Shown: positions 3,790-19,663, counted from the stretch's first letter. The stretch: 64,000 bases of DNA from Acidobacteriota bacterium (GCA_035529075.1 DATKXK010000015.1:186001-250000), one strand, 5' to 3'. The notes: generated by a model from the letters alone, not told the origin. A program made the numbers and translations.

Positions 3790-6099
3790 ATGCCGGGATA
3801 CGCCAAGCTTCGGGACGATCTGGTTTCCTCCCGGATGACCGTCGCGGGTCAGACCGTTTATACGCTGAAGGACCCGGTGGGAGGCCGATACTTCCGGCTC
3901 CGCGAGCCGGAGTTCTGGCTTGTCCATCAGCTTGACGGCCGCACCGAGCCTGAGAGGATCGCCTCGAGATTCAGGGAACGGTTCCAACTGAACATAAGCG
4001 CGGCCGACGTGCAGGCGTTTGTCGACCAACTGGAAGAGCTGCTGTTTCTGGAGAGCAGCCGGTCAGAACAACTGGTGTCGCGGGCTGGCTACCGAACCTC
4101 CTCGGGTCGGTCGCTGGCCGGCCGCATATTTTACCTGAAGCTCAAAGCGTTCAGCCCGGGGCGGCTGCTTGACCGGCTGACGGCTCTCTATCGTCCCCTT
4201 CACCGGCCCGGCTGGTTTGTCGTGCAGGGTGTAGTAATCGTGATTGGTCTTGCTGTGCTGTGGGCCAACGCCGGGCGGTTCGCGGTCGATCCGGCCGGGA
4301 TCTACAACGTAACCTCGATTGCCGCTATCGTTCTGTCGATATTCATCCTGGTTACATTCCATGAGTTCGCGCATGCGGTTGTCTGCCGGTACTACGGGGG
4401 ACAGGTGCGTGAAATCGGTTTCCTGCTAATGTATTTCCAGCCTTGCTTCTACTGCGACATTTCGGACGCCTGGCTCTTCGAGAAGAAGTCGCATCGCCTC
4501 GCGGTGACGATTGCCGGTCCGTATTTTCAGCTTGTGCTGATGGCGGCTGCGGTGATCATCTGGCGGGTCGCTACGCCGGGCACGGCCGTCAGCGAGGTTT
4601 CCCGCCTGGTGGTTATAGTGAGCCTGGTCAGTTACCTGTTCAATTTCAACCCGCTGATCAAGCTCGACGGGTACTATTTGCTGTCGGACTGGCTTGATAT
4701 TCCCAACCTTCGCCAGAAGTCATTCTCGTACCTCGGCTACCTGCTCAAACGGGGAATCCTGGGCTGGCCGGTGGAGTCACCGGGGGTCACCCGGCGGGAG
4801 CGCAGGATCTTTACACTGTACGCTATCCTGTCGCTGGCCTATACCGGCTTCCTGATTACCTATATTCTCTTCCTGGCAGGGCGTTTTTTGCTGGAAAAGG
4901 TGGGCGGAACAGGGCTCGTATTGTTGTTGACGATCCTGTTGTTTGTGTTTAGACATAGTGTGATCGGCCTGGGCCGCGGTGTTGTCCGGCACCTTGCGTA
5001 TATGAAAAGAATACTGAGAAAACCGTTGCGGCTGGCCTCGTACGTGGCCGTGTTTGCCGTCGTGCTGGTCGGGTCGTTGGCCGTGCCCTTCCCGCAGCGC
5101 GTCTCGGGTGATGTTATCGTTCGCCCCATCGCTGAGTTCACCCTGTCGCTGTCTCAGGCCGGCTTGCTGGAGACCAATCTTCGTTTCGGCGGCGAGAAAC
5201 CAGAATCGCGTTCCAGCTTTCTGCAGATGACGTCCAACGAGATGGCTGTGCTTGACCTGGCGCCCCTTGTGCAGGACGGCCAGAGGGTACGTCCGGGCGA
5301 TACCATTGCCCTGCTGACCTCCAACCAGATTACGCGGGAGATAACGAGCGCCCAGGCAGAACTTGACGGGCTCGAAGGCGAATTGGCGTTGCTGCAGGCG
5401 CCGCCAAAGGCGGAGGAGGTCGCCGAGGCAGCGGCTGGCGTGACCGCAGCACAAGCCTACCACGACCAGCAACTTCGCGAGTATGAGCGAGTGAAGCAAC
5501 TGGTGGAGAAAAAGCTCGAGACCGCAGAGAAACTGGAAGCAGCCGGAGCGGCCCTGGATATCGCCCGGGCGGAGGTGGCCAACAAGACGTCACGCCTGCG
5601 GCTTCTGCAGTCGCCGCCCCGTCCCGAGGAGGAAGCGGTACTCCGGCACGGAATCGATAAGCAAAAGGCCAACCTGGACTTCCTTACCCAGCAGGCCGAG
5701 GCGCAGATGGTTGTGACCCCTATCGGCGGCACGGTCTCCACCCGCGCGGACGGCAACGAAATTCTCAAGGTGGCCAATCACAACACCGTGGAGCTGACCG
5801 TGCCCGTATCCGATTTCGACATCACACTCGTGCGCACCGGTCAATCGACGGCGGTAAAGGTACGATCATACCCGCAGCGCATGTTTGTCGGACGTGTCAT
5901 ACGCATATCGGAGGAGGCCGAGGCCGGCAGCGACAAGTCGTATTTCCCGGTCTCCGTTGTTCTTGACAACGATGACGGGCTGTTGCGTTCCGGTATGTCG
6001 GGTTATGCAAAGATCGAGGTTGGCAGAGCGTCTCTGGCCGGCCTGGCGGCACGCAAACTCACGTCGCTGCTTCGAGTCGAATTCTGGTCCTGGTGGTGA
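3790..6099 (+). CDS. PqqD-M50 peptidase-HlyD fusion protein (peptide processing/export)
   Basis: A 769-residue three-part protein. Residues about 5-90 resemble a PqqD-like domain, the fold used as a leader-binding RiPP recognition element. Residues 130-430 are a multi-spanning membrane domain with the zinc site of site-2-protease family M50: HEFAH (191-195) and a distal NPLIKLDGYY (around 287-296) carrying the third ligand Asp. Residues 430-750 form a HlyD/membrane-fusion-like periplasmic arm with a split biotinyl-lipoyl domain (QDGQRVRPGDTIALL) and a long coiled coil (about 515-620). The same combination of M50 and HlyD arm occurs in YydH-like putative peptide zinc metalloproteases. No ABC transporter or radical SAM gene lies next to it. 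The ATG at 3790 has a poor ribosome site. A tiny peptide gene lies 345 bases downstream. Confidence 0.85.
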   Translation: MPGYAKLRDDLVSSRMTVAGQTVYTLKDPVGGRYFRLREPEFWLVHQLDGRTEPERIASRFRERFQLNISAADVQAFVDQLEELLFLESSRSEQLVSRAGYRTSSGRSLAGRIFYLKLKAFSPGRLLDRLTALYRPLHRPGWFVVQGVVIVIGLAVLWANAGRFAVDPAGIYNVTSIAAIVLSIFILVTFHEFAHAVVCRYYGGQVREIGFLLMYFQPCFYCDISDAWLFEKKSHRLAVTIAGPYFQLVLMAAAVIIWRVATPGTAVSEVSRLVVIVSLVSYLFNFNPLIKLDGYYLLSDWLDIPNLRQKSFSYLGYLLKRGILGWPVESPGVTRRERRIFTLYAILSLAYTGFLITYILFLAGRFLLEKVGGTGLVLLLTILLFVFRHSVIGLGRGVVRHLAYMKRILRKPLRLASYVAVFAVVLVGSLAVPFPQRVSGDVIVRPIAEFTLSLSQAGLLETNLRFGGEKPESRSSFLQMTSNEMAVLDLAPLVQDGQRVRPGDTIALLTSNQITREITSAQAELDGLEGELALLQAPPKAEEVAEAAAGVTAAQAYHDQQLREYERVKQLVEKKLETAEKLEAAGAALDIARAEVANKTSRLRLLQSPPRPEEEAVLRHGIDKQKANLDFLTQQAEAQMVVTPIGGTVSTRADGNEILKVANHNTVELTVPVSDFDITLVRTGQSTAVKVRSYPQRMFVGRVIRISEEAEAGSDKSYFPVSVVLDNDDGLLRSGMSGYAKIEVGRASLAGLAARKLTSLLRVEFWSWW

Positions 6100-6120
6100 A
6101 CCGTCGCACACTATAATGCG

Positions 6121-6156
6121 TCCACCGATGCAATGTCGGTATTATCGGTGGATTTT
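6121..6156 (+). terminator. Probable terminator of the PqqD-M50-HlyD gene
   Basis: A perfect nine-base inverted repeat, TCCACCGAT (6121-6129) and ATCGGTGGA (6144-6152), is followed by TTTT. It lies 22 bases after the stop codon, so the downstream peptide gene is likely transcribed separately. Confidence 0.5.
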
Positions 6157-6253
6157 AGTCGCGTGCGCAACGGCAAGGAATACCCGTCCTGCGAATTTTT
6201 TTCTGCCCCGCGCGTAGCTCCTTATTTGTGAGTCACACGGGGTAGGAAAATTT

Positions 6254-6280
6254 TTCTCGCGTTACTGCGATCCGCGAGAA
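6254..6280. repeat. Perfect 8-base inverted repeat upstream of the peptide promoter
   Basis: TTCTCGCG (6254-6261) and CGCGAGAA (6273-6280) are exact reverse complements separated by 11 bases, one helical turn plus. It lies about 40 bases upstream of the proposed -35 box, a normal place for an activator or repressor site. Its role is inferred only. Confidence 0.45.
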
Positions 6281-6317
6281 TGTGGCGACAAATCTCAAGA
6301 AATATGGATCGATCTTC

Positions 6318-6345
6318 TTGACGGCCTCGTAGGATATACTATCAT
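6318..6345 (+). promoter_or_regulatory. Candidate sigma70-type promoter of the 31-residue peptide gene
   Basis: TTGACG (6318-6323) and TATCAT (6340-6345) are separated by 16 bases; each differs from consensus by one base. Transcription would start near 6352, giving a leader of about 90 bases that contains the GAAA hairpin and the strong ribosome site. Confidence 0.5.
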
Positions 6346-6355
6346 ACTAGTGGAA

Positions 6356-6396
6356 ATTGCATCTGCGTGTGTGCGAAAGCACACAGTATTGCATCC
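6356..6396 (+). promoter_or_regulatory. 5'-leader hairpin with GAAA tetraloop between direct repeats
   Basis: TGTGTGC (6368-6374), loop GAAA (6375-6378), GCACACA (6379-6385): a perfect seven-base stem capped by a stable GNRA tetraloop. It is bracketed by the direct repeat ATTGCATC (6356-6363 and 6388-6395). Lying in the untranslated leader of the peptide gene, it could stabilise the mRNA or bind a regulator. No known riboswitch class is recognised. Confidence 0.5.
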
Positions 6397-6430
6397 ATTC
6401 TTCCATTGATAGGGAGAATGTTTAAGCACA

Positions 6431-6440
6431 AAGGAGGTGA
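6431..6440 (+). promoter_or_regulatory. Perfect Shine-Dalgarno sequence
   Basis: AAGGAGGTGA matches the complement of the usual 16S rRNA 3' end over all ten bases; GGAGG is seven bases from the ATG at 6445. Most genes in this window have far weaker sites, so strong translation of the tiny ORF is expected and its reality is well supported. Confidence 0.8.
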
Positions 6441-6444
6441 GTGG

Positions 6445-6540
6445 ATGACAGATTACAAGCTGACCGTTGAACTGCTTGAAGCTCGCATTGCACCCATCGG
6501 TGGTTGGAGCAATGGCGGCCAGTTACCAGGGATACCGTAA
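6445..6540 (+). CDS. 31-residue leader-like peptide, possible substrate of the M50 protein
   Basis: A 31-codon ORF, too short for routine gene calling. It begins MTDYKLTVELLEARIAP, a charged amphipathic stretch like a RiPP leader, followed by a short Gly-rich tail with GG at 19-20 and 24-25, one Trp (21) and the ending GIP. Cleavage after G20 would leave an 11-residue product; this is a guess based on double-glycine leaders. Support for it being real: perfect Shine-Dalgarno, own promoter, a leader hairpin and a terminator right after it. It lies just downstream of a protein with a PqqD-like leader-binding domain, an M50 protease and a HlyD arm, suggesting enzyme and substrate. It contains no Cys, Ser-rich or Thr-rich core, so lanthipeptide or thiopeptide chemistry is unlikely. 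A LExRxAP-like N-terminal motif also occurs, as I recall, in exported planctomycete proteins. Confidence 0.6.
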   Translation: MTDYKLTVELLEARIAPIGGWSNGGQLPGIP

Positions 6541-6554
6541 AGGTCTTCCATGAT

Positions 6555-6578
6555 AGGGCAGGCTTCTCAGCCTGCCCT
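6555..6578. terminator. Shared hairpin between convergent peptide and Ser/Thr kinase genes
   Basis: AGGGCAGGC (6555-6563) and GCCTGCCCT (6570-6578) form a perfect nine-base stem with a six-base loop. The kinase stop codon (6567-6569, reverse strand) lies in the loop. The hairpin can serve both strands; T-tracts are short. Confidence 0.55.
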
Positions 6579-9569
6579 CCCTTTATCACCGAGCAACTCT
6601 CCGAGTTGCTTTATTTGTTTGGCCAGGAAGGCCACTGATCGCTTTTGCCGGTACCGTTGCCGGTCCGCCTCGTTGCGCAGACTATCGACAATTTCTTTAC
6701 ACAGTTGCAGGCCTTTTTTGCTGTCCTGGTAGCATCTCTCCCAGGCACCGCGAGTGTGTTGCAGTCTCGCGCTTAGCGCCAGTCCGACCACCATCTCCGG
6801 CAGCAATCTGCATCGTTGGGCCACGGTGAGCGCCTTGCCCACGAACGTCTCGGCTCTGTCAGGTTCTCCGGCCTCAAGCAGGGCTTCGCCGATAAGGTTG
6901 CACATCCAGGCCAGTTCAATGTCTTCCGTCAATCCGACAGGAATCCCCTGCAGTTGTTCCGCCAGGGCCTCGGCCTTGTCGAACAGCCGGCGTTCCAGAA
7001 GAAATTCAAGTCGGTTGAAGGCCAGCAACTGTCTCTCGCGGGCCATGTGCAGATTCTCGGTGAGTTCTTCAGTGCGGCGCACGTAGGCCGGGTCGTCACT
7101 CATCCGGGTGATCAGCAGCAGGGCACCGAGCTGGCTCTCGCTGTGGCCGATGGAGTCTGCCTCGTCGAGTGCTTGGCGGGCCAGGGACAGGGCCTGGCCG
7201 TCATCTCCGACCGCGTGTCGAAGGGCGGCCTCCTGCAGTTGAAGGGCTGTCTCCAGGAATCTATGATCCATCTCACGGCAGAATTGCCGGGCCGTCTTCA
7301 GGTAGTCTTCAGCTTCGGAGAATCGGCCCAGGCGCCGGTAGACCGCGGCCAGGTTGGCGTTGAAGACACCGAGATCCGCCTTGGAGTTCAGAGACTGAGC
7401 CAGCTCCAGGCCCTCGCGAAAGTAGTCCAAAGACGCCCGGAGTTGCCCGGCCGTGATCATTATTTCCGCCAGGTTCGAAAGGTTGAACAGGATTTCCTTC
7501 TTGGAGCCAATGCGGCGATTTAGCTCGAGTGATTCGGACAGGCAGTCGGCCGCCCGGCCGATTTCTCCGGTCATGTAGAAGGCATATCCGAGGTTGTTCA
7601 GGGTGCGGGCTATTTCTCCGGCGTGGCCGATCTCCTTCTTGAACTCGAGAGCCAGGTTTAGAACAGAGAGGCAGCGCGTATAGCGTCCCTGCGCGCCGTA
7701 AACGTTCCCGATGTTGTTGAGGGTGGAAGCCACCTCGGCCCTGGCATCCAGCTGCCGCTGAATCCTCAGCGCCCGGCGGTACTTGCTCAGCGCGTCGGGC
7801 AACTGGGCGGTAAGCCAGTAGATGTTGCCGAGGTTGTTCAGCACGTGCGATATCTCGAGCCGGTCATCCAACTGTCGAAAGATGTCGAGTGATTGTTCCA
7901 GGGCTTCAAGCCCTCTGGCGAACTCTTGTCTGAGACGGTACAGGTCGCCGAGATCCTTATACGTCTCCGCCAGCAGCTTGTCCGGCGGCCTGTTCCGGTA
8001 CAGGTCGATCAACTCGCGGTAGGTCAGCAGGGCTTCTTCGGTCTCGCCGTTCTCCTTGTGGCAGTCACCCCGCAGCATCAGCAGGTTGCGCACGAAGAAC
8101 TGATTATTCAGGAGTGCCGCGTACCGTATGACACGGTTGATCAGCGCCACGGCCTCGGTGTTGCGGTGATCCCGGTTAAGTTCGATGGCGCACTGGTACG
8201 CGCATCGCTCGGCGCCGTCAAGCTCCCCCGCCTGGATGAAGAGGTCGACGGCCGCCCGGAGCCGGCCCAGCCGTTCGGCCTGGAGCGCATACCTGGCCGA
8301 GAGCTTTCTCACCGTTCCGGTTCGCAGCAGGGGCCGCAGGAGCGTGATAAGCGCCGGCGGGATCGTGACGCCGCCCGTACGGCCGGTCAGGTTGAGCTTC
8401 CGCGCCGTCTTGTAATCGCCAACAACTGCGGCCATGATGCTCTCTTTCTTCAGCGCATCAGGCAGACTCTGAAAAACCTGAAGCTGCCGCCGACGGCAGG
8501 CTGCCGGCCAATAGATGGTCTGCTTGAAATGAAATCGCCCGGCGTCGTAGACCATGTTGTGGCGGACGAAGTTGGCCGTCAACACCAGCCGCAGCTGGGC
8601 GTTGTCTCCGTCGCACAGCAGGTCCAGCCGCTCTTTCTCCGCCTCCGACACGGAGACGGCAGCGCGGACGTTTTCCTCATAGTCTTTGTGCGGCTGCAGG
8701 AGGTGGGCCGGTCGGAGTGCCCGGGCAAACGGATAGCATGCCCCCAGGGCTTCCAGTTCACGGCACACCTCAATCGCCTTGCCCGGACGATCCGAAGCGT
8801 CCTTGGCCAGAAGGCGGCTCACGAGGCCGGCGACTTCCGGCGGGATGTCCCGTCGAAATCGGTTCACCGGGTACGGTTCTTCCTCGCGGACGCGGGCGTT
8901 CACGCGCATCGGTTCACTTTCGTCGTGCATAAAGGGATGCCTGCCGGTGAGCAACTGGTAGGCCGTCACGCCGAGCGCAAACAGGTCCGAGCTGTGGCTG
9001 ACCACGCTATCCGTGATCGTCTCGGGGGCCATGTAGCCGACTGTCCCCAGGCCAAGCCGCCGGCTGTTGTCCTCTGAGACGAGGCGGCCCAGTGAGAAAT
9101 CGGAGAGCTTTGCATAGAACAGGACCTTGGCCGGGGTGTCGGCCCAGTATGGCGGGATGAAGATGTTCTCGGGCTTGAGATCACCGTGCACCAGGCCCGC
9201 GGCGTTCAGGAATTCCAGGTCGACGGCAATTGCCGATATCAGGTCGAGCGTCTTATGCGGGTCCTCGACACGGCCCAGCTCGGCCAGCGACGGCCCCTCG
9301 CACAATTCGAGCATCAGGTACTCGCCCTCCCTTTGGGGCGGTTCGAGCAGCCGTACCAGGCCGGGGTAGCGACGGTCGCCGATCAACGCGTATTCTCTTT
9401 GGGCCAGATCAGCAAACGGGTGAGTCAGGCTTTTTGCCGTGTTCAGCGGGAACTTGAGCGCGGCCTTGATGTGAAGGTCGGTAACGAATGCCTTTACAAC
9501 CTCGGCGGTTCCGCCGGTGCCGAGAGGTTCGATGCGTTGGAACCGGGCGTTGTCACGGGGCGTCGGCAT
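6567..9569 (-). CDS. Ser/Thr protein kinase with long TPR array
   Basis: A 1000-residue cytoplasmic protein. Residues about 10-290 are a Hanks-type kinase: glycine loop (LGTGGTAEV), Lys39 in AALKF, catalytic loop HGDLKPEN (128-135), metal-binding loop DFS (157-159, where DFG is usual) and APE (181-183). Residues about 430-960 are a run of TPR-like helices (repeats such as NNLGNIYWLTAQLPDALSKY). No transmembrane segment or extracellular sensor is seen. The start codon directly follows the stop of the upstream histidine kinase (TAAATG), so the two are translationally coupled. TPR-fused kinases of this layout are usually signalling hubs; the target is unknown. Replacement of Arg in HRD by Gly suggests it does not need activation-loop phosphorylation. 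Confidence 0.88.
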   Translation of the reverse strand: MPTPRDNARFQRIEPLGTGGTAEVVKAFVTDLHIKAALKFPLNTAKSLTHPFADLAQREYALIGDRRYPGLVRLLEPPQREGEYLMLELCEGPSLAELGRVEDPHKTLDLISAIAVDLEFLNAAGLVHGDLKPENIFIPPYWADTPAKVLFYAKLSDFSLGRLVSEDNSRRLGLGTVGYMAPETITDSVVSHSSDLFALGVTAYQLLTGRHPFMHDESEPMRVNARVREEEPYPVNRFRRDIPPEVAGLVSRLLAKDASDRPGKAIEVCRELEALGACYPFARALRPAHLLQPHKDYEENVRAAVSVSEAEKERLDLLCDGDNAQLRLVLTANFVRHNMVYDAGRFHFKQTIYWPAACRRRQLQVFQSLPDALKKESIMAAVVGDYKTARKLNLTGRTGGVTIPPALITLLRPLLRTGTVRKLSARYALQAERLGRLRAAVDLFIQAGELDGAERCAYQCAIELNRDHRNTEAVALINRVIRYAALLNNQFFVRNLLMLRGDCHKENGETEEALLTYRELIDLYRNRPPDKLLAETYKDLGDLYRLRQEFARGLEALEQSLDIFRQLDDRLEISHVLNNLGNIYWLTAQLPDALSKYRRALRIQRQLDARAEVASTLNNIGNVYGAQGRYTRCLSVLNLALEFKKEIGHAGEIARTLNNLGYAFYMTGEIGRAADCLSESLELNRRIGSKKEILFNLSNLAEIMITAGQLRASLDYFREGLELAQSLNSKADLGVFNANLAAVYRRLGRFSEAEDYLKTARQFCREMDHRFLETALQLQEAALRHAVGDDGQALSLARQALDEADSIGHSESQLGALLLITRMSDDPAYVRRTEELTENLHMARERQLLAFNRLEFLLERRLFDKAEALAEQLQGIPVGLTEDIELAWMCNLIGEALLEAGEPDRAETFVGKALTVAQRCRLLPEMVVGLALSARLQHTRGAWERCYQDSKKGLQLCKEIVDSLRNEADRQRYRQKRSVAFLAKQIKQLGELLGDKGRAG

Positions 9570-11384
9570 TTACATCTGTAGCGCCTTCTGACGCTGTACG
9601 CGTGGAATGACGATTCTGAAAACGCTGCCTTCGTTCTCCTTGGAGTGCACGGTTATGTCGCCGCCGTGCAGCTCCAGGATCTTACGGCAGTTGTGCAGCC
9701 CCAGACCGTGCCCGCCCTTCTTGGTGGAGAAGTGCAGGGCAAAGATCTTCTCCTGAACCTCCGAAGCCATTCCGGTGCCGTTGTCGGAAACCTCCACGAT
9801 CGCCTGGTCCGTATCCTTGTCGTAGGACGTACGGATGGCGATCTCTCTTGTGAATTCCCGTCCCTCATCCTGGGCATGAGTGGAACGTTCGCCGATGGCG
9901 TCGGCCGCGTTTATGAGCAGGTTCATAAGCACCTGCTGAATCTGTCCGACGTCTATCTCCACTTTCGGCAGGCCGGCGTTCAGGTCGTTGGTGAAGTGAA
10001 TGAGTTTGAACCTTGGCTGGATGTGGAGAGAAAAGAGAACGTCTTCGACCAGGTTGTTCAGGTCATAGGTGACGTACTCCGACTCCGGCCGGGAGAAATC
10101 CATCAGGTTATCAACGAAGCGCTTGATCTTAAGGATGTTCTCGGTGATCGACCTGGCGTTGAACCCGATCTTGTCAAGCTTGCCGCGGTCGATGTTCATG
10201 GTCAGCAATTCGGCGTTGTTCGAAATGATTGACAGGTAGTTGTTCAATTCGTGGGCCACCGAGGCCGCCATTTCTCCCTTGGCCACCAGCTTCTCCGAGA
10301 GAATCACGTACTGCTCCATCGTAATTTTCTCGGTGACGTCCTCCGCCGTCATGACCAGACCGTCGCTTCCGTCAGTCAGGCCGGCCAACGGGCACAGCTT
10401 CAGTGAAAGCACCTTCTCCACGTAGCCGGTATTGTGATAGAATCGGGGGTCGGCGTATTCCTGCTTTGTAGCCAGGGCCGTGGTGATCATGGAGCGCCAG
10501 CGCGAGCGTTCCGACTCCGGGATGCAGTCGAGAAACATGCTCGGCTGACCGCCCTGACTCGTTATCCGGACCGTGCGCACATCCAGGTCAAAGATCTCCA
10601 GGGCGGCCGGGTTGATGGTGGCGATGGCCCCGCGCGAGTCGACGACGATAATGCCCACCGGCGAAGTGCTCACCACCGATTCGTTATACTGCTCCAGCCG
10701 CAGGAGCGAGTCGTAGATACTGGCGTTATGAAGAGCGTTTGACGCCAGTTGCGCGTACAACTCGAACAGGTACAGGTCCGACTTGAGAAACATCTTGGTC
10801 TGGCTCGAGTTGTCGAGGTAGATGACGCCGATGACTTTCTCCTTGACGATGAGCGGCACGCACATGATCGAGCGGAGGTGCAGTTCCATGACCGACTTGT
10901 GATGCGCGTACCGATCATCGGCCATGGCGTCGGATGTATAGACCGGCTTTCCGGTCCGCGCCACCTCGGAGGTAACGCTGCTGGAGATGTAGAAATCCTC
11001 TTCCATCATCTCTTCTTTGCAGAGGTTGTACGCGGACTTGACCTGTAGCCGCTCATTCTCGTCCAGAAGCATGATAAGGCCGCGTTCGGCCTGCATCAGT
11101 TCAATGGCCTTGTGCATCACTCGCTGCAGGACGTTATCGAGCACGAGCGAGGAGTTGACCGCCAGGGTGGTCTCGAGCAGGGCTCGAAGATCGGCGTTGC
11201 GCGCAGAATCGCCTGACTGCTCCGCCTTTATCCGGGGATTCGTTTCCGCTACCGCTTCGAGCGTCGCCTCCAAATCGGCGAACATGTCGGCAGTCATGCG
11301 CACTGTGTTTTCGCCGGCGTCACCAGACCCCGGATCGACCGCCGTTAGTTCTTCCACTGTTTTGTCACGACCGAGCTGTTTCAT
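9570..11384 (-). CDS. GAF-PAS sensor histidine kinase
   Basis: About 604 residues from the ATG at 11384, which has AGGA a few bases upstream; an in-frame extension to 11480 would need a TTG start and lacks a ribosome site. Domains in order: GAF (about 95-235), PAS (about 240-365, SPVGIIVVDSRGAIATINPAA), HisKA with H-box VAHELNNYLSIISNN, and HATPase_c with N box NLLINAADAIGE, G1 DNGTGM and G2 GGHGLGLHNC. No membrane segments, so the signal is cytoplasmic. It lies between the DUF4390-like gene and the Ser/Thr kinase, coupled to the latter by TAAATG; this physical coupling suggests both kinases serve one pathway. No response regulator adjoins it; the closest is the NtrX-like gene three genes upstream. 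Confidence 0.88.
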   Translation of the reverse strand: MKQLGRDKTVEELTAVDPGSGDAGENTVRMTADMFADLEATLEAVAETNPRIKAEQSGDSARNADLRALLETTLAVNSSLVLDNVLQRVMHKAIELMQAERGLIMLLDENERLQVKSAYNLCKEEMMEEDFYISSSVTSEVARTGKPVYTSDAMADDRYAHHKSVMELHLRSIMCVPLIVKEKVIGVIYLDNSSQTKMFLKSDLYLFELYAQLASNALHNASIYDSLLRLEQYNESVVSTSPVGIIVVDSRGAIATINPAALEIFDLDVRTVRITSQGGQPSMFLDCIPESERSRWRSMITTALATKQEYADPRFYHNTGYVEKVLSLKLCPLAGLTDGSDGLVMTAEDVTEKITMEQYVILSEKLVAKGEMAASVAHELNNYLSIISNNAELLTMNIDRGKLDKIGFNARSITENILKIKRFVDNLMDFSRPESEYVTYDLNNLVEDVLFSLHIQPRFKLIHFTNDLNAGLPKVEIDVGQIQQVLMNLLINAADAIGERSTHAQDEGREFTREIAIRTSYDKDTDQAIVEVSDNGTGMASEVQEKIFALHFSTKKGGHGLGLHNCRKILELHGGDITVHSKENEGSVFRIVIPRVQRQKALQM

Positions 11385-11486
11385 CGTTGTCCTGTACGTT
11401 TTTGGGGCTGTCTCTTCCACGTAATTATCGGCAGAAAGGCGGTTTGGCTTAGTCCGGATGCCCGCAGGAAGGGGGCGCAAGGGGCC

Positions 11487-12128
11487 TTACGGGCGCCCGG
11501 CAAGTTCCGGCAGCGAGAAGGAGCGGGAGTGGGCGCTATACTCTCTCCGGCCATACCCGGTCAGGCCGAGGAATTTCCTGAAGAGAAAGCGTACCGGTGA
11601 TTCCGAGGAACCCGGTCGGTCCGCCGCAGGCTCTGCTAAGTTGAAATCAGTCAGCGTGATACAGGCGATGGTTACTTGCAAGGCATAGCGAACGTCCGGG
11701 TCGAGAGAATCCACAACGGCCAGAGGTATGATCACGGAGTCTTCCAGGTAGCGATTCAGCCCGGTCAGCGAGACGAACGGGCCGGCGCGGCCGGAGTCGA
11801 CGGTCGAAATTATGATGACAAAGTCCTCGGCCACCGGGCGGAATCTCACCTGGAACGTGCGCTCACGGGCGCCGACCCGGCGGTCACCGAAGAACCTTCG
11901 AGACGCCGTCAGGGCCAGACGGCATTCAAACAAGACATCAATGCCGTCCCGTAATTGCTCCACCTCCTCCGCCCCCAGAAACCGTCTCAGATCGATCCAG
12001 ACGGCCACGTCTGAGCCGGTAACAAAGATGTCGAATTCAACGGTGAGTTCGTCCGCCCTGGCGTCTCCCGGGCCTGCCACCAGCAGAACCGCCAGCGCAA
12101 GGAGGGCTGACCGGACGGCTGCCGTCAT
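11487..12128 (-). CDS. DUF4390-like periplasmic protein
   Basis: A 213-residue protein with a cleavable signal peptide (LLALAVLLVAGPGDARA). The body (VAVWIDLRRFLGAEEVEQLRDGIDVLFECRLAL) matches what I remember of the DUF4390 pattern: a beta-rich protein containing a conserved LRDGI-type turn. In proteobacteria DUF4390 genes sit beside NtrY/NtrX-like two-component genes; here the NtrY- and NtrX-like genes are just upstream on the same strand, with only the barrel protein between, which supports the assignment. The function of DUF4390 is not known. The start has a weak ribosome site. The C-terminus is basic and Ser-rich. Confidence 0.55.
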   Translation of the reverse strand: MTAAVRSALLALAVLLVAGPGDARADELTVEFDIFVTGSDVAVWIDLRRFLGAEEVEQLRDGIDVLFECRLALTASRRFFGDRRVGARERTFQVRFRPVAEDFVIIISTVDSGRAGPFVSLTGLNRYLEDSVIIPLAVVDSLDPDVRYALQVTIACITLTDFNLAEPAADRPGSSESPVRFLFRKFLGLTGYGRREYSAHSRSFSLPELAGRP

Positions 12129-12158
12129 GAGAGTCTGCCCATGCGCCGGTGGTGCGAA

Positions 12159-13907
12159 TTAAAACACATGAGCGAAACGGGCGTAGATCTGCGAATTGTC
12201 ATCAGAACGATCCAGCCGCTTGGCCAGGCTGATGCGGAAGTCGTCGCCGAAGTAAGCGGCAATCCCGATTGAGTGTTTCAGCTCTATATCGCGGTCGATG
12301 CTGGCATCATTGGCGATCTGAGCAACGTCCCAGAGCAGTGAAAGAGCCAGATCGGTTTTCGGGAAGTCCACCCGGTATTCGGCGTTGGCCATCCAGAAGC
12401 GGCTGCCCATAAGTTCCTTGTGTTTGTATCCGCGCAGGGTCCCCAGACCTCCCATGTAGAACCGCTTGTACATCGGCAGGTACCCGTCGGAACCGCCGTA
12501 CATGGCGCGCAACAACAGCATGATTCGCCGATGCACCCTCTGATACCGCCGCACACTGACCGTGTACCGCCGGTAGTCAAAATCAGAACCCAGGTCGGGA
12601 GTGGACCACTCGATCTCTCCCGTGACCGCCCAGGCTGACTGACTGTACGGGCTGTCCATGTCGCGGGTGTCAAAGTCCACGCGCGCCGAGAGATCGGCAT
12701 TGGTCGCGGTGTCCAGTTCAGCGATCCCGATACTCCGGTAGGCCGGGTCTACGCGCGCGAAGTTGGCCGGGAAGTCCTTGTGGGAGCCAAACAACGAAAA
12801 CAGGTTCCTGTGGGCGCCAAGCCAGGCCGTCTCTTCGTACCGGTACCGGCCCAGCAACTCGAGATCCTGCAGCGGGCTGACGGTCACGTAAACCGTGCCG
12901 CCTTCGGCCTCGTAGTAGTCCTTGAAATCCTCGTTCACCAGCAGGGTGAAGCATATGTTCTCCCTGTCCTCCAGCAACCAGTCATCCTGCGAGGCCAGTC
13001 GCCGGTAGTACTCGCCGCCTATGGACAGCGGCGGTCGCCGCAAGATGGTCTGCTCCAGCCCCACGGCGTACCGCCACCGCTCCGAGGCGAAGGCGTACCC
13101 GATCGACGCCCAGACCGAAGGCAGGAGAGAATCGATATCCGAGTGCCGCAGGCCGACGCCCAGAGCGGCTCCGTCGACCCGGTTGTAATCGAAATCGCCG
13201 GTGAACTCTAACTCCTCCTCGCGCTGCCAGCGGCGAAACCGATGCTTGACCCGGTGCTTGCCGGTGTATATTTCGCCGTAGATGGACGCGTCACGGGAGG
13301 CATCGACCCGGCCGGTTATGGAGACGACGTCCCCACGCACGACGGCATCCGGCCCGATGGCTACGTCGCCGAACAGCGATATGACGTCCTTGTTGACTTC
13401 ACCGTACACCTTGACGCGTCCCGCCACCGAGAACACGAGTCCCCGGATGAATTCGTCCTCATCGACAGTCACACCGTTGAAAGGCTCCACGCGGTTCCGG
13501 TACCTGATTCGTGAGGGTCGGTCAACTGCGGCGGTTCGAGCGAAGAAGGTGACAACGGTGTGGTCCGTAGATTCCTCGACGCGCGCGTCGTAAATCTCGT
13601 CGTAGGGCAGGACTTCACCGGCGAGGTGCAACCCGTCCTTGTCGAAGATCACCCGGTCACCGGCTACTATGCGCCCGTCGTCTTCTCTGATCTCGTCCAG
13701 CGCGAAGCGGTCGGTGAAGTACCGGTCCGCCATGGGAATGGTGATTTCCGCATTCTGCTTGTCGAACGAGATTTCGAAGTATTCCTTACCTGCCTGAGAG
13801 CGCCGGTATTCTTTGTACTGAGTTTCTTGTGCGACGGCGCAGGTTGAAGCACAGACAGCAGCCAGTGTCAGGCATGCCAGCAAACGGTTACGTATTCTGC
13901 GAGTCAT
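12159..13907 (-). CDS. Outer-membrane beta-barrel (Omp85/surface-antigen type) with bactofilin-like N-terminal part
   Basis: A 582-residue protein with signal peptide (LLACLTLAAVCASTCAVAQ). Residues about 25-150 are beta-rich; about 150-215 show a short-period turn pattern (VYGEVNKDVISLFGDVAIG, then VVRGDVVSITGRVDA) like polymer-forming bactofilin strands. From about 225 to the end there are amphipathic strands of an outer-membrane barrel, with the Omp85 family signature GGLGTLRGY near residue 490 and a terminal Phe (FAHVF) as expected for BAM-assembled proteins. There are no POTRA domains, so it is not BamA; a role in surface or lipid handling is possible. It lies downstream of the NtrY/NtrX-like pair after a 128-base gap that could hold a promoter (13908-14035). 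Confidence 0.75.
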   Translation of the reverse strand: MTRRIRNRLLACLTLAAVCASTCAVAQETQYKEYRRSQAGKEYFEISFDKQNAEITIPMADRYFTDRFALDEIREDDGRIVAGDRVIFDKDGLHLAGEVLPYDEIYDARVEESTDHTVVTFFARTAAVDRPSRIRYRNRVEPFNGVTVDEDEFIRGLVFSVAGRVKVYGEVNKDVISLFGDVAIGPDAVVRGDVVSITGRVDASRDASIYGEIYTGKHRVKHRFRRWQREEELEFTGDFDYNRVDGAALGVGLRHSDIDSLLPSVWASIGYAFASERWRYAVGLEQTILRRPPLSIGGEYYRRLASQDDWLLEDRENICFTLLVNEDFKDYYEAEGGTVYVTVSPLQDLELLGRYRYEETAWLGAHRNLFSLFGSHKDFPANFARVDPAYRSIGIAELDTATNADLSARVDFDTRDMDSPYSQSAWAVTGEIEWSTPDLGSDFDYRRYTVSVRRYQRVHRRIMLLLRAMYGGSDGYLPMYKRFYMGGLGTLRGYKHKELMGSRFWMANAEYRVDFPKTDLALSLLWDVAQIANDASIDRDIELKHSIGIAAYFGDDFRISLAKRLDRSDDNSQIYARFAHVF

Positions 13908-14035
13908 GTTCCCTCCGTTTTACCGGCTTATAAACAAGTATCGTGCCAATATATCAACCTGTTATTCTACAGGCGCTTATGTCCGCCGACAAGATAATAC
14001 TGTGGCGTTGCGCCACGCCTCCGCACAGTTCCCGG

Positions 14036-15379
14036 TCAGGGAATCTTCAGCCTGAAGTCCTTCACTTTTCGCGACAGGTTGCTGCGATCGATCTTCAGAC
14101 GCCGCGCCGTCTCTGAGATGTTCCCGCCGGTTTGCCCCAGGGTCTTCTCGATGATCTGCCTTTCCAACAGGGCGAGACGTTCGCCCAGCGACAACTCCGT
14201 CGGTCCGGGGCAGGCCGCGCCGGCCGGACCCCTGAATTCGGCGTCGATGTCCTCCGGCTGAACCGTCCGCCCCCGGTACAGGATGGTCAGGCGCTCGATC
14301 AGGTTTTTCAGTTGGCGGACGTTGCCCGGATAGAGGAGCGTGCCGATGCAAGCCAGCGCCTCGGCTGACAGCTTTACCGACTGTGAGGGGTCAAAGCGGC
14401 GCAGGAACTCGCCCACGAGGAGCGGAATATCCTCGCGTCGTTCGGCCAGCGACGGCACCCTGAGAACAAAGACCGACACGCGGAAATAGAGGTCCTGGCG
14501 AAATCTGCCTTCGCGCACAAGTTGTTCCAGGTCCTGGTTGGTGGCGCATATGATGCGAGTATCCACCAGCCTGTGGCTGTCGGCGCCCAGCGTCTCGATT
14601 TCGCCGGTTTCCAGGACGCGCAGAAGTTTGGCCTGACAGGGCAGAGGCAAATCGCCAATCTCGTCCAGGAATATCGTGCCGCCGTCGGCCATCACAAACT
14701 TGCCGGGATAGTCTTTGATTGCACCCGTAAACGCGCCCTTGACGTGGCCGAAAAGCTCGGATTCGAACAGGGTTTCCGGAATGCCCGGACAGTTCACCCT
14801 GATGAACGGACGATCACGACGGTGGCTCTGAAGGTACAGGCGCGTGGCCACCAGTTCCTTGCCGGTGCCGTTCTCGCCGGTCACAAGCACGGTCGTGTCC
14901 ACGGGGGCCACGCGGGAAATGGTCGCCAGCGTTTTCTTGATCGCCGCCGACTGCCCCACGATGCGGCACCGCTCATCCATCTCGTCCACCAGCACCGTCC
15001 GCTGACGATCAGCCGCGGCCAGAAGCAGGGCGGTTTTCGCTGACGCAATCAGCTTCTCCGGCAGCACCGGTTTTTCGAGAAAGTCAACGGCCCCGAGCCG
15101 TACGGCTTCAAGCGCCATCGGAATATCCGCCTGGCCGGAAATGACGAGGACGGGCGGCGCCAGAGGATCTGCCTTGAGCTGCCGGAGAAAGTCCAGACCG
15201 GACTGCCCCGGCAACTGCAGATCGAGAAGGATCAGCTCGAAGGATTGCCGCGCGCATTTCTCGGCAGCCTGTTCGGCCGAGGCCGCGGTCACCGGTGAGT
15301 ATCCCTCGTCCTTCAAAAGCGAGGAGAACGAGAGGGTGATATTGGGCTCGTCGTCAACGATGAGAATGGATATTCGCAT
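14036..15379 (-). CDS. NtrC/NtrX-family sigma54-dependent response regulator
   Basis: A 447-residue regulator with three domains. REC domain: acidic pocket D9-D10 and phospho-acceptor D53 ([10 protein letters not shown]). AAA+ domain: Walker A GENGTGKE (168-175), sigma54-contact loop GAFTGA (215-220) and Walker B GTIFLDE (234-240), so it should activate RNA polymerase-sigma54. C-terminal Fis-type helix-turn-helix ([20 protein letters not shown]). It starts three bases after the stop of the NtrY-like kinase gene, its evident partner. Target promoters are not identifiable in this window; I found no convincing GG-N10-GC element just upstream of the adjacent genes. Confidence 0.93.
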
Positions 15380-15382
15380 GCT

Positions 15383-16816
15383 TCATTTCTTTGTCGGCAG
15401 TGAAATGGTCACGGTCGTGCCGTGCCCCGGGCGGGATTCGACCAGAACCTGACCGCCCAGTTCGCTGATTGATTTTTCCACAATCGCCAGGCCGAGACCG
15501 GTCCCGGCTTCTTTTGTCGTGAAATAGGGCAACCGCGCCTGGGCGAGAGTATTCGCATCCATGCCCGCCCCGTCGTCGCGCACGGTTATGCTGGCGCGCT
15601 CGGCGTCGGTTGTCACGCTCAATTCGATCCGCCCGCCCTCACCGGTGGCATCGATTGCATTCTGCAGCAGGTTGTGCAGTGCCTCGCGAAGATAGGTGCC
15701 GTCGGTTCGCCAGCGCAAGCTGGCCGGCGCGGAGAGAACCAACTGGCGGCTGACACACTGCTGCTGGTAGAGACTGACTATCGAGCGCGCGAGATCGGCC
15801 AGGTCAAGGTCTTCCAAGGCAGGTGCCGGGAGTTTGGCAAGGTGCGAAAAGCGGTCGGCCAGGCCGGTCAGGTGACGGATTTCCTCGGAGGCTGCCTTGA
15901 GGGGTTCGTGAATTTCACTGAGCGCGGGGGAGTCGGCCAACTGCTTCTCGATTCGGTACAGTGATACCAGAAGCGGCTGCAAGGGGTTTTTCAGTTCGTG
16001 GGCAAAACGCCGGGCTACCTGACGCCAAGCCGCGACGCGTTCCGTCTGGGCCAGCCTGGTGGTGGCCCGGTCGAGCTGCCGGGCCATCCGGTTGAAGCTG
16101 ACAATCAGCGTTCGGAGTTCTCCTTCACCCGAAGCCTTCACCTCCTGGCGGAAGTCGCCGCCGGCAATCCTGCCTGACGCCCTGCTGAGCTCCTGAAGCG
16201 GCCGGGCGAGGTTTCGCGACAGGCGCGACGAAAAGAAATAGGCACCGCCCATTGCCAGCAGGGAGAGGACCACAAACAGCACCCCGACGAACTGCAGGTA
16301 CTCGGATCGCAGGCGGCGGCTCGAACTCTTCAGGGCCGTTTCCCGGCGGATCGTCTCCAGCAATCCCGCGTATCCCCGGTCATGAACGATCCCCGCGTAA
16401 ACGACCCCGGCGGAGTCCGTACCGCTGCGCACCCATTGGTAGAGACGATGGTCCGCCTCGACGAACCCGCGATCACGGCTCTGTCCCGCGCGTGTCATAT
16501 TCTCCAGCGCTTCCTGCGGCAACACGGAATCGATCGGAGCCGTAACGGTCCGGGGGTCGCCAAAAGCATACAGGAAATCCAACCGGCCTTCCGGGACGGT
16601 GCCGGTCTGGACGTACTGCTCAAGCGCTCGGCCGATCCGTTCGTACAGGTAATCGTTGTAGTAGCCGGTCACCTGGTCGATCCCGGAGTCCTCCCGGCGG
16701 TCGGCCAGGCCGGTCTCGGTCGTAAGGTAGTAACCCGCCACGGCCAGCGTCACGACCGGCACGATCGAGAAAACGAGGAAGAGGCGAAACAGCTTTCGTT
16801 GAAACGAGGCCTTCAT
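15383..16816 (-). CDS. NtrY-like membrane sensor histidine kinase
   Basis: A 477-residue kinase: transmembrane helix at about 10-30, periplasmic domain of about 140 residues, second helix at about 175-198, HAMP (about 200-250), HisKA with H-box FAHELKNPLQPLL, and HATPase_c with NLLQNAIDAT, DDGAGM and GTGLGLAIV. The layout and the response regulator immediately downstream make it an NtrY-type sensor. The periplasmic part has no recognised ligand domain. It begins 13 bases after the Nudix gene ends, within the same minus-strand run. Confidence 0.9.
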   Translation of the reverse strand: MKASFQRKLFRLFLVFSIVPVVTLAVAGYYLTTETGLADRREDSGIDQVTGYYNDYLYERIGRALEQYVQTGTVPEGRLDFLYAFGDPRTVTAPIDSVLPQEALENMTRAGQSRDRGFVEADHRLYQWVRSGTDSAGVVYAGIVHDRGYAGLLETIRRETALKSSSRRLRSEYLQFVGVLFVVLSLLAMGGAYFFSSRLSRNLARPLQELSRASGRIAGGDFRQEVKASGEGELRTLIVSFNRMARQLDRATTRLAQTERVAAWRQVARRFAHELKNPLQPLLVSLYRIEKQLADSPALSEIHEPLKAASEEIRHLTGLADRFSHLAKLPAPALEDLDLADLARSIVSLYQQQCVSRQLVLSAPASLRWRTDGTYLREALHNLLQNAIDATGEGGRIELSVTTDAERASITVRDDGAGMDANTLAQARLPYFTTKEAGTGLGLAIVEKSISELGGQVLVESRPGHGTTVTISLPTKK

Positions 16817-16828
16817 AAGGTCGTGTGG

Positions 16829-17401
16829 TCACTTCCGTGTGCGCATGCGCCGGTCATAATCGGCCAGGGCCTGCCAGTGGGCTTCGAAGGCAATGTTCTC
16901 AGGGAGCTCATCGAACCCGAAAAAACGAACGTCCTGGGCGTCGTCGGACGCGCTCAGCAGACCCCCGATCACCTCTCCGAGATAGAGTATAAGGACGGCG
17001 TTGGATCGAGGATCGTCCTGTCCCGAGTATACTTCAAAGAACGAGTTTATTTTCACTTTGAGGCCGGTTTCTTCCTCCAGTTCCCGCACGGCCGTCTGCT
17101 CCGGGTGCTCGTGCCATTCCATGAAGCCGGCCGGGATGCACCACCAGCCGACTTTCGGCGGATGCGCACGTTTGACCAGCAGAATGCGATCCTGCTGGAC
17201 AATGATGACACCGGCCGCCGGGACGGGGTTCTGGTAGTAGACAAAGTCACAATCCCCGGCCTCGCATACGAGGCGCCGATGGCCGTCGAGTACATGCTCG
17301 CTAAGGGGCCGCGCGCACAGGGGACAGTACCTGTAGTCGCAGAAGCGGGCTTTCCTCAGAAACAGCCGCTCGGCGTCGAAATGGTCGTGTTTTCGTGTCA
17401 T
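16829..17401 (-). CDS. Nudix hydrolase with N-terminal zinc ribbon
   Basis: A 190-residue protein. The N-terminus carries a zinc ribbon (CPLC at about 23-26, then C...C around 45-50), and the centre carries the Nudix box: Gly, five residues, Glu, seven residues, REL-EEETGL (around 92-114), which binds the catalytic divalent cations. The pattern is that of NudC-like and ADP-ribose/NADH pyrophosphatase-like enzymes, which hydrolyse nucleoside diphosphate derivatives. It lacks the SQPWPFPxS signature of true NudC, so the substrate is open. It starts six bases after the RsbU-like gene stop codon and is probably co-transcribed. Confidence 0.85.
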   Translation of the reverse strand: MTRKHDHFDAERLFLRKARFCDYRYCPLCARPLSEHVLDGHRRLVCEAGDCDFVYYQNPVPAAGVIIVQQDRILLVKRAHPPKVGWWCIPAGFMEWHEHPEQTAVRELEEETGLKVKINSFFEVYSGQDDPRSNAVLILYLGEVIGGLLSASDDAQDVRFFGFDELPENIAFEAHWQALADYDRRMRTRK

Positions 17402-17407
17402 GGATCC

Positions 17408-19663
17408 TCACCTCCGGTCGGTGATCTTCATAGCTACGATCGTGGTGTCATCCTGGGGTGGATAGGTCGGGTCGAAGCCTCGCACGTCCCGCATGAGATC
17501 GTCCACGATGGTACGCGGATCCTTGGAGCGTGACCTGACCAGGTGATCGCGAATCCGCGTCTCGCCGTACTCCTCTCCGTCGCTGTTCATGGCTTCCGAG
17601 AGGCCGTCCGTAAACAGGAAGAGGATGTCCTCAGCCCTGAGTTGGACGGAGGCCGAGGTGTACTTCATGTCGGAGAGAGCGCCGATGATCGGTCCGCCTT
17701 CGTCGAGGAGTTCGACGTCGCCGTTTGCCCTGACAAGGATCGGGTAATTGTGGCCGGCGTTGGCGTAGTGGAACACGTCACTGTCACTGTCGATCTCGCC
17801 GTAGAAGAGCGTCACGTACTTTTCGGCCGAGGTGGAGTGCACGATCTGCTGGTTCATGTTCTCCATCATGGTGGAGATCGGATTGCCGTTGTTGACCTCG
17901 CAGCGGATTATGGCCTGCACCTGGGCAATCAGCAGCGCCGCCGGCATACCCTTCCCGGAAGCATCGGCGATCACGACGCCCACGCGTTTCTGCTCCGCGA
18001 TGGTGATGAAGTCGTAGAAGTCACCGCCGACGGTGCGCGAGGGCGTGGACTGGGCAACGATAACGCTGCCCGGCAGCTGGGGCGGATGGTCGGGCAGGAG
18101 GTCAAGCTGAATCTGCCTGGCCATGCTGACTTCCTCTTCAAGCCGTATCTTCTCCAGCGAGTCGGCATACAGGCGCGCGTTGGTCAACGCGGTCACCATC
18201 TGGTTGGACAGCACGCCCAGCAGGTTGTAGTCCTCGGGCGTGTACCGGTAGCCGGCGGCTTTGGAGGTCAGGGCCAGAAAACCGAGCAGGTGCTGGGCGT
18301 CCTTCATGGGCAGGATCAGCCTGATCTTCATCTGGTGCAGGATAGAAGCCAGTTGCGAGTCTTTCTCATAATCGCCCAGGCTGCCGAAATTCGTCGGCCT
18401 GTCCAGCAGGTTGATCCCGCGAAGCATGAGGTCGTCGCGGTCGATAACGGTGCGGCGAGGGTAGTCGTCGCTCTGGAGAATCGCATACTCACCGACACCG
18501 TCGTCGTACAGCACGAAGTATACATTGTCGATAAGAAGCGCCGTCTTCAGGGTGTCCTGAATCGATTGCCGCAGCTTGACCGGGTCAAACACGGAGATCA
18601 CCTGGCGCGAGAACCGCTCCATGATGTAGCGGTAGTCGGTGCGGGTGCGCATGAACATGGAGCGAACCACGTTGTCGATCCAGTTGCTGATGGGTGGAAA
18701 CACCAGCAGCAGCAGGACGATGAAAACATAGCTCACCGTTTGAGCGCGCTCGCCGAAGATCGGCGTCAGGAGTTCCTGCGACCGCAAGGCCAGAAACACG
18801 TACGTGCCGACAAGCAGGGTCGAGGCGAAAGTGTAAATGAGCGACTGGCGGAAAACCAGGCGGACGTCGAGAAACTGGTGACGAACGATGGCGTACGCGA
18901 AAAACCCCGCACCGGTCGTCATGGCCCCGATGCGAAGGAGAGTCCCGGGGCTGTCGCCCAGGTCGTGTTCCACGACGTAGGTGACAAGGTACGACAAGAT
19001 GTACAGCCCGAGCCCGAGCCGCGTCCCCCACAGCACGGCACTCGTCTGACTAAGCAGCCTGGGGTTGGTGACGTACCGCCGGCCGGCCTCGAGAAGGTAA
19101 ACCGCCACGACCACGTAGAAGACGTTGATCGTTCCGAATACCGATTGCTCATACGTGCGCAGCAGGCCGAGAAGGATCACCAGGCGTGAGAACAGGTAGG
19201 ACAACGGGCCCAGGATGATGCTCAGGAAACCGCCCTCGGCCGCGGAGGCGGACAGGCTCTCGGCAATCTGGCTGAGCTCGCGAAACGACAGCACCAGCAG
19301 CAGGTGCATCAGTTGCGGAATCAGGATGACGAGGATCAACCGGGGTCGCCGCACCGTCCTGAGACGCTCTATGGGGAAGTGCAGGGAAAATACCACCAGC
19401 AGCGGGAAGAAGAATTCCCAGGCCAGGTAAAGGTTGTAAAAGGCGGTCTGGTCCAGCGGTTGACCGGCGCTCGTGTCCTGTAGCAGAATCGCTCCGAGAG
19501 CCATCGAGATGGGACCGAACCCGGCGAAAAACAGCATGGCCCCCGTGATCCGGTTGATCCGGTTGCTGATGTTGTCACGAGTGACCGTGATGGCCAGGAA
19601 AATGAGAAAGCCACCCGTCAGGAAATATGTCAGTGTTTTCAGCAGTTCGACGTTCATCGCCAC
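17408..19663 (-). CDS. RsbU-like PP2C (SpoIIE) phosphatase with membrane sensor and GAF domain
   Basis: A 751-residue protein. Residues 1-330 hold about eight hydrophobic segments, resembling a 7TM/histidine-kinase-N type sensor. Residues about 335-490 look like a GAF domain, followed by a short coiled coil (LEKIRLEEEVSMARQIQLDLLP, the usual linker) and a SpoIIE-type PP2C phosphatase (VGGDFYDF, VIADASGKGMPAALL, FLFTDGLSEA, DDTTIVAM), with the metal-binding Asp residues present. In partner switching such a phosphatase dephosphorylates the STAS antagonist. The STAS and RsbW-like genes lie directly upstream, so the three make a complete switch. Confidence 0.92.
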   Translation of the reverse strand: MAMNVELLKTLTYFLTGGFLIFLAITVTRDNISNRINRITGAMLFFAGFGPISMALGAILLQDTSAGQPLDQTAFYNLYLAWEFFFPLLVVFSLHFPIERLRTVRRPRLILVILIPQLMHLLLVLSFRELSQIAESLSASAAEGGFLSIILGPLSYLFSRLVILLGLLRTYEQSVFGTINVFYVVVAVYLLEAGRRYVTNPRLLSQTSAVLWGTRLGLGLYILSYLVTYVVEHDLGDSPGTLLRIGAMTTGAGFFAYAIVRHQFLDVRLVFRQSLIYTFASTLLVGTYVFLALRSQELLTPIFGERAQTVSYVFIVLLLLVFPPISNWIDNVVRSMFMRTRTDYRYIMERFSRQVISVFDPVKLRQSIQDTLKTALLIDNVYFVLYDDGVGEYAILQSDDYPRRTVIDRDDLMLRGINLLDRPTNFGSLGDYEKDSQLASILHQMKIRLILPMKDAQHLLGFLALTSKAAGYRYTPEDYNLLGVLSNQMVTALTNARLYADSLEKIRLEEEVSMARQIQLDLLPDHPPQLPGSVIVAQSTPSRTVGGDFYDFITIAEQKRVGVVIADASGKGMPAALLIAQVQAIIRCEVNNGNPISTMMENMNQQIVHSTSAEKYVTLFYGEIDSDSDVFHYANAGHNYPILVRANGDVELLDEGGPIIGALSDMKYTSASVQLRAEDILFLFTDGLSEAMNSDGEEYGETRIRDHLVRSRSKDPRTIVDDLMRDVRGFDPTYPPQDDTTIVAMKITDRR

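Follow-up and report, generated by a model that had tools for sequence, protein, structure and literature searches.

A PqqD/RRE-M50-HlyD fusion and its short leader peptide: a candidate leader-guided protease-exporter in Zixibacteria and other phyla

The window analyzed here, a stretch of 64,000 nucleotides from a genome of Zixibacteria type (the phylum to which all phylum-wide counts below refer), carries a gene for a PqqD/RRE-M50-HlyD fusion protein and, behind it, a 31-codon gene whose leader accompanies the fusion in several phyla. The best reading of this pair, and a likely one, is that of an RRE-guided leader protease-exporter with a short, possibly signalling, product in Zixibacteria. 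The 31-residue ORF would be the precursor of a leader and a product, and the fusion a leader protease and exporter dedicated to it. The PqqD/RRE domain, in the cytosol, would grip the leader at E.LE.RIAP, the M50 domain in the membrane would cut just after the ...RIAP, and the fused HlyD arm would pass the short product, here probably IGGWSNGGQLPGIP, to the periplasm and out, no modifying enzyme being required. The same pair of leader and machine would handle other cargo in other phyla, up to giant proteins, while in Zixibacteria the released product would be sensed by a convergent kinase-TPR/HisKA pair. The pairing of the leader with PqqD-M50-HlyD, its spread, its link to LEPR-XLL and its sensor neighbours are new, and they offer a compact design for peptide secretion in one polypeptide.

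Domain structure of the fusion protein

The fusion gene (3790–6099, plus strand) encodes a putative leader-binding protease-exporter of 769 amino acids, as judged from Pfam and NCBIfam models, an alignment of 32 homologues and AlphaFold2. A preliminary description, made from the sequence of the window, had proposed that this single protein combines a PqqD-like domain, a HEFAH M50 protease and a HlyD arm, and the architecture was borne out by Pfam, AlphaFold2 and Foldseek. On the full protein the M50, HlyD_3 and HlyD_D23 models all scored above cut-off, and the PqqD model reached 20.8 bits (cut-off 23.4) versus 24.9 bits on the domain alone. The AlphaFold2 model of the whole fusion (pLDDT 82.8, pTM 0.45) comprises a head of beta-beta-beta-alpha-alpha-alpha order, helices for the membrane and a barrel-shaped adaptor from which long helical hairpins extend.

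Residues 1–92 (3790–4065, plus strand) form the predicted PqqD/RRE leader-binding domain. A structure search was needed for this segment because a sequence search against the PDB gave no useful match. The top seven PDB matches of its AlphaFold2 model (pLDDT 89.6) are all leader-binding RRE/PqqD structures (TbiB1-leader, lasso B1-leader and PqqD), with probability 1.00 and TM 0.60–0.67, at modest Foldseek E-values of which the best is 2.9e-3. The M50 membrane metalloprotease part (about residues 124–431; 4159–5082, plus strand) scores above cut-off with PF02163, is modelled with helices by AlphaFold2 and contains, both intact, the motifs HEFAH (residues 191–195; 4360–4374, plus strand) and NPLIKLDG (4648–4671, plus strand). 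In the 32 homologues, which come from several phyla, H191, E192, H195, N287, P288, L289, K291, D293 and G294 are invariant, and since the HExxH and NPxxKxDG residues are thus preserved, protease activity is probable. The HlyD/MacA/EmrA-like periplasmic adaptor part (about residues 433–748; 5086–6033, plus strand) is recognized by PF13437 and PF16576, by PDB profile matches to EmrA (8e-20) and MacA, and by Foldseek matches to MacA/EmrA.

The peptide gene and its surroundings

The precursor peptide ORF, MTDYKLTVELLEARIAPIGGWSNGGQLPGIP (6445–6540, plus strand), follows the ribosome binding site AAGGAGGTGA (6431–6440, plus strand), and a strong Shine-Dalgarno sequence precedes nearly all of its relatives. 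A cut site taken from daptide leader numbering would divide it into the leader MTDYKLTVELLEARIAP (6445–6495, plus strand) and the predicted product IGGWSNGGQLPGIP (6496–6537, plus strand). In a genome-wide search with a leader profile that includes the window sequence, the ORF was the sole match in its own genome (E 5.9e-10); a second LExRISP site there (C5:5988), with a stop codon directly after the motif, was dismissed as chance. The leader family counts 94 distinct relatives in Zixibacteria, with a consensus close to M..Y.L.IE.LE.[RK][IV]AP followed by a tail of about 6–18 residues, often G[ILM]S.GGQ (e.g. AGISLGGQ). In most Zixibacteria loci such mini-ORFs, of 20–35 codons and with strong ribosome sites, adjoin the fusion; in some families they are located elsewhere in the genome. 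The seed alignment A2 had 26 rows, used as search seeds only, of which two (LVVEVEELEERVAPAG and TEIEIEILESRETPGV) are inexact copies.

The gene for the peptide is genuine and under selection. In 33 disjoint close pairs among the 94 distinct sequences, differences at codon positions 1, 2 and 3 number 53, 32 and 192, and codon changes are synonymous in 169 cases versus 62 non-synonymous. Because the search pattern had fixed part of the leader, the ratio found there is biased low; leader columns outside the pattern show 48 synonymous versus 22 non-synonymous changes, and the tail, which was not used for sequence selection, 49 versus 37. Hence the 31-codon ORF behind its ribosome site stands as the preliminary description had it, and conservation at codon level, which that description had named beforehand as a test able to refute it, is present.

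Other signals proposed for this gene fared less evenly. Its own promoter corresponds to a sigma-70-like match, TTGACG-16-TATCAT (6318–6345, plus strand), found by a consensus scan only and agreeing at 10/12 positions. The 5' hairpin, read from the sequence, is present in the window (6368–6385, plus strand; 7 bp, GAAA loop; z -2.6 for the region) and is not generally conserved upstream of the relatives; with z-scores there mostly weaker than -2, a conserved riboregulator was rejected. As to the terminator, a 9-bp inverted repeat (6556–6577, plus strand) lies between the convergent peptide and kinase genes, yet it overlaps the kinase stop codon and is followed by a weak T-run only, and the sole terminator-like match of the scan (6591–6611) falls inside the kinase gene. 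The short ORF, with a promoter-like match and hairpins upstream, could be taken for a leader ORF or a chance ORF in a regulatory RNA, with no functional product. The third-position excess, the conserved start and Shine-Dalgarno sequence, the 94 distinct relatives and the lack of conservation of the upstream structure speak against this explanation, which the codon pattern already refutes for the most part and which we regard as extremely improbable.

Co-occurrence of leader and fusion, and the cargo behind the leader

Two separate genome-wide searches, one with the leader profile and one for the fusion, were compared. Among 132 Zixibacteria genomes, the leader was found in 95 of the 101 that bear the fusion versus 7 of the 31 that do not. 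Some of the assemblies behind the six genomes with fusion and no detectable leader, and the seven with leader and no fusion, are incomplete, and at least one of the seven holds a fusion fragment beside the peptide at a contig edge (genome G040, locus L116). Outside Zixibacteria, where the p-values ignore shared ancestry, 51 of the 297 Acidobacteriota genomes have the fusion, and these include all 16 that bear the leader (p 6e-14); in 15 of the 16 a leader ORF is no farther than about 2 kb from the fusion. All 9 leader-bearing genomes of Planctomycetota (199 genomes, 44 with the fusion; p 6e-7) likewise carry it, and so do all 3 at the strict cut-off of E <= 1e-3 in Armatimonadota (148 genomes, 8 with the fusion), two weaker leader matches in the last phylum being in genomes without fusion. 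LEPR-XLL proteins, whose E.LEPR core is related, were found in 15 Planctomycetota genomes, and 13 of these bear the fusion (p 5e-8, likewise regardless of shared ancestry).

A small ORF is therefore conserved beside the fusion, or together with it, throughout Zixibacteria and in other phyla, in agreement with what the preliminary description had expected from a search of related genomes. It tells against the protease-exporter reading that peptide and fusion are unlinked in Zixibacteria families f4, f7, f10 and f12–f16, and that no leader ORF was found beside the fusion at the distant Zixibacteria loci L030, L031, L034–L036, L040 and L049. The interpretation given in the preliminary description is thus supported in part: its pairing of peptide and fusion survives both tests proposed for it, the neighbouring ORF and the codon-level conservation. 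The leader also heads other types of cargo.

In Acidobacteriota the tails are glycine/histidine-rich or consist of NPGNE/YEGQPGNQ repeats, with 30–60 residues, and a conserved 95-amino acid form and three- to fourfold tandem 31-mers also occur. Armatimonadota tails end in [FYW]WR. Bdellovibrionota carry Asp-rich proteins of about 1,000 amino acids beside TolC and HlyD genes, the gene for the TolC-type outer membrane channel lying beside the fusion, and in Planctomycetota the open frames headed by the leader extend over 350–2,936 codons. Such a constant leader before variable cargo would be expected of an export route guided by the leader. This variety of cargo had escaped the preliminary description.

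Comparison with known systems

The closest known pair, which the preliminary description had also missed, is formed by the protease and the leader of the daptides. In these an RRE is fused to a site-2 protease and an RRE-dependent intramembrane peptidase removes the leader, whose motif is ELExMEAP and whose residue numbering ends at that P (PMC10036551). The best NCBIfam match of the fusion is the daptide RRE-M50 protease (E 2.7e-68), and the RRE-M50 fusion of MpaP is present here too according to Pfam, NCBIfam and the structure match. The systems also share several short ORFs per locus and the assignment, here predicted, of leader removal to the protease. Their leaders are comparable in ending with E-L-E-x-x-x-A-P, E.LE.RIAP keeping the frame of ELExMEAP but having R-I in place of M-E. 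It is from this comparison that we infer binding of E.LE.RIAP by the RRE and cutting after the proline by the M50 part. On the strength of the modelled fold and the daptide analogy the PqqD/RRE domain very probably binds the leader, and by the same analogy cleavage after AP is likely; the predicted fold, the intact catalytic residues and the daptide precedent make the predicted binding and cutting by these two domains well supported.

The system differs from the daptides in that the fusion scores 230.9 on the daptide_HExxH model, below the cut-off of 300 bits, in that no oxidative decarboxylase, aminotransferase or methyltransferase is among the genes annotated at 1.9–19.7 kb of the window, and in that there is no invariant C-terminal Thr, the tails ending in Q, D, E, P, G and others. 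The extra HlyD arm is a further difference. Identity with the daptides was consequently rejected, on the score as well as on the missing Dap genes and C-terminal Thr. It weighs against the protease-exporter reading that the usual substrates of M50 proteases span the membrane, the peptide being short and without an obvious transmembrane segment.

Epipeptides (YydF/EpeX) provide the second likeness, in that, as stated in the accessible part of PMC10885120, their M50 protease YydH/EpeP is thought both to cut the short peptide and to help in its release and export; that part of the source describes no RRE-HlyD fusion. The fusion studied here reaches 42.4 of 225 bits on the YydH/LiaK-type model NF058609, and the annotated neighbourhood lacks a radical-SAM epimerase. 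Export through the HlyD arm, suggested by the order of the domains together with the case of EpeP, is by analogy slightly favoured. Fold and sequence of the adaptor half resemble the MacA/EmrA/HlyD adaptors of tripartite exporters, but here the adaptor is fused to a protease and no separate ABC, MFS or RND pump gene is nearby. The HlyD adaptor of type I secretion is likewise found in the fusion, and an ABC transporter gene is lacking among the genes annotated at 1.9–19.7 kb, as had been claimed for the vicinity of the pair; export without a separate ABC transporter, which that claim implied, is no more than plausible, as one may be encoded elsewhere. Against the protease-exporter reading, neither an outer-membrane channel nor an energy source for export came to light in Zixibacteria.

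The same neighbourhood bears on the possibility that the peptide is a RiPP, for example bacteriocin-like, with its modifying enzyme encoded elsewhere and the fusion acting only as leader peptidase and adaptor. RRE domains and the nearest protease families (daptide MpaP, YydH/LiaK) are indeed RiPP parts, and an oxidoreductase-like gene (618–1766; FAD-type by sequence) lies upstream in many loci of family f1. It is near the peptide, however, only in part of f1 and f4, and no RiPP-modifying family was found among the genes annotated at 1.9–19.7 kb, as the preliminary description had maintained; a RiPP is accordingly rather improbable.

The N-terminal motif RRLxxExLExRxLLA / LxLExLExRxxP of planctomycetes is regarded as a novel export signal (Studholme 2004, as cited in PMC8567305). 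Like LEPR-XLL (NF012209), it has the E.LE.R core N-terminally, on proteins that are secreted or at the surface, with the difference that the cargo there is large. NF012209 (cut-off 17 bits) did not match the window peptide and gave 9.5 bits with a Planctomycete LEPRIAP ORF, and PF07595 (planctomycete extracellular motif), whose presence in the scanned Pfam set is uncertain, matched none of ten leader proteins. The open-licence literature searched assigns no machine to this motif or to LExR, and no paper on the PqqD+M50+HlyD combination was found in it. We propose tentatively that PqqD/RRE-M50-HlyD might be the cognate machine of the orphan E.LE.R tag (LExRIAP, LEPR-XLL, planctomycete LExLExRxxP) in several phyla, working without a separate ABC pump on anything between a few residues and a giant surface protein, and that in Zixibacteria it might make a peptide signal common to the phylum, which a TPR kinase would sense. 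The planctomycete export motif, known since 2004, would thereby gain a testable candidate machine and a cut-site prediction borrowed from daptides.

The kinase-TPR neighbour

A Ser/Thr kinase-TPR protein of 1000 amino acids (6567–9569, minus strand; Pfam), a candidate receptor or output, is encoded tail-to-tail with the peptide gene, a convergent adjacency seen across the phylum. It is followed by its syntenic partner, a GAF-PAS-HisKA-HATPase histidine kinase (9570–11480, minus strand; Pfam). The kinase-TPR gene, and not the fusion, is the firmest neighbour of the peptide in Zixibacteria: it is tail-to-tail with the peptide in 33 of 39 sampled loci versus 10 of 39 with the fusion within 2 kb, a comparison that is not unbiased because many loci were picked for a peptide away from the fusion. 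Of 30 GenBank loci located by way of the fusion, 24 have the kinase tail-to-tail as well, and the median gap between peptide and kinase is 35 bp over all measured loci. Where the fusion has moved away (families f4, f7, f10, f12, f14, f15 and f16) the peptide is still tail-to-tail with the kinase-TPR gene, usually with the GAF-PAS-HisKA gene next. Across 13 or more GTDB families the linkage holds, even as the remaining neighbours vary. Exceptions are family f8 and two f13 loci, with the kinase-TPR gene not beside the peptide, and genus g10, with several peptides beside a HisKA gene and no kinase-TPR gene there.

This linkage, which outlasts that with the fusion and leaves a median gap so short, could also mean that the peptide acts within the cell, inhibiting or activating the convergent kinase-TPR protein, and is merely degraded or released by the fusion. 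Yet the leader goes with the fusion in four phyla, the kinase being no partner of it there, and the conserved part is the leader, not the tail; an intracellular regulator is hence, in our estimation, improbable. Another alternative is that a short convergent gene has simply inherited its place beside the kinase, the peptide itself being a structural or surface component, as large LExR cargo elsewhere seems to be. The giant and repeat proteins among the cargo of other phyla and the g10 peptides without kinase fit this explanation; the persistence of the linkage over those GTDB families does not, nor do the sensors that recur, as seen without a random-gene control, next to fusion-unlinked leader ORFs of two further phyla. 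We consider it unlikely, though the least so of the alternatives weighed here.

In those two phyla, Armatimonadota and Acidobacteriota, fusion-unlinked leader ORFs often adjoin GAF-GGDEF, GAF-SpoIIE, HD-GYP-GAF-GGDEF or GAF genes, no baseline of random ORFs being available for this frequency. Together with the kinase linkage, these sensor genes suggest signalling. That the protease-exporter product in Zixibacteria serves as a signal, with the convergent kinase-TPR/HisKA pair as its reader, is a real possibility, somewhat short of an even chance, and would provide a candidate circuit for peptide signalling, conserved throughout a phylum of which almost all genomes here are metagenome-assembled. 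The arrangement resembles RRNPP quorum sensing, described from Gram-positive Firmicutes (PMC10075063), in that a short propeptide gene is adjacent to one for a TPR protein, and differs from it in the convergent kinase-TPR protein as the candidate receptor. The standing of this gene as the most stable neighbour of the peptide had gone unnoticed in the preliminary description.

In the window, the Ser/Thr kinase-TPR gene is the last member of a run of signalling genes on the minus strand (6567-19663), the other members being SpoIIE-GAF, NUDIX, a HAMP histidine kinase, a sigma-54 response regulator, an Omp85-domain protein, DUF4390 and GAF-PAS-HisKA. In the Zixibacteria genus g10 the peptide genes are arranged in tandem, several per locus (four in L007, 8488-9584; at least six in L012, 8462-9895), with cores of the type S[RK][YWF]G and no kinase gene beside them. 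An Armatimonadota array (L201, G136:C331) contains GAF-GGDEF and GAF-SpoIIE genes alternating with LExRIAP mini-ORFs that end in [FYW]WR.

In two distant Zixibacteria no leader ORF was found near the fusion, which is followed by a signal-peptide-like protein of ~107 aa (L034, 8772-9095; L049, 8667-8993), possibly another type of substrate. Loci from Acidobacteriota and Verrucomicrobiota (L038, 7550-8596; L047, 4582-5739; L048, L041 and L050) have a protein of 320-385 aa after the fusion, and a Pfam search with the L048 copy gave no match. Conserved in Acidobacteriota (L220-L223, L227, L231-L233) is a ~95-aa protein, composed of RKLKVEELEARIAPS plus ~78 residues, which appears to be a separate cargo family bearing the leader. 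In Acidobacteriota genome G198 a 31-codon ORF, MAKKSTKKVVKLNVERLEKRIAPTRAAIAMG, is present as four identical copies in tandem, which converge on the fusion (L292, 7840-8315, minus strand), and G185 harbours a similar set.

The Bdellovibrionota loci L205, L206 and L053 bring together the M50-HlyD fusion, HlyD and TolC-family genes and an Asp-rich repeat protein of ~1000 aa with a KLEERIAPG leader at its N terminus, an assortment that could constitute a complete system.
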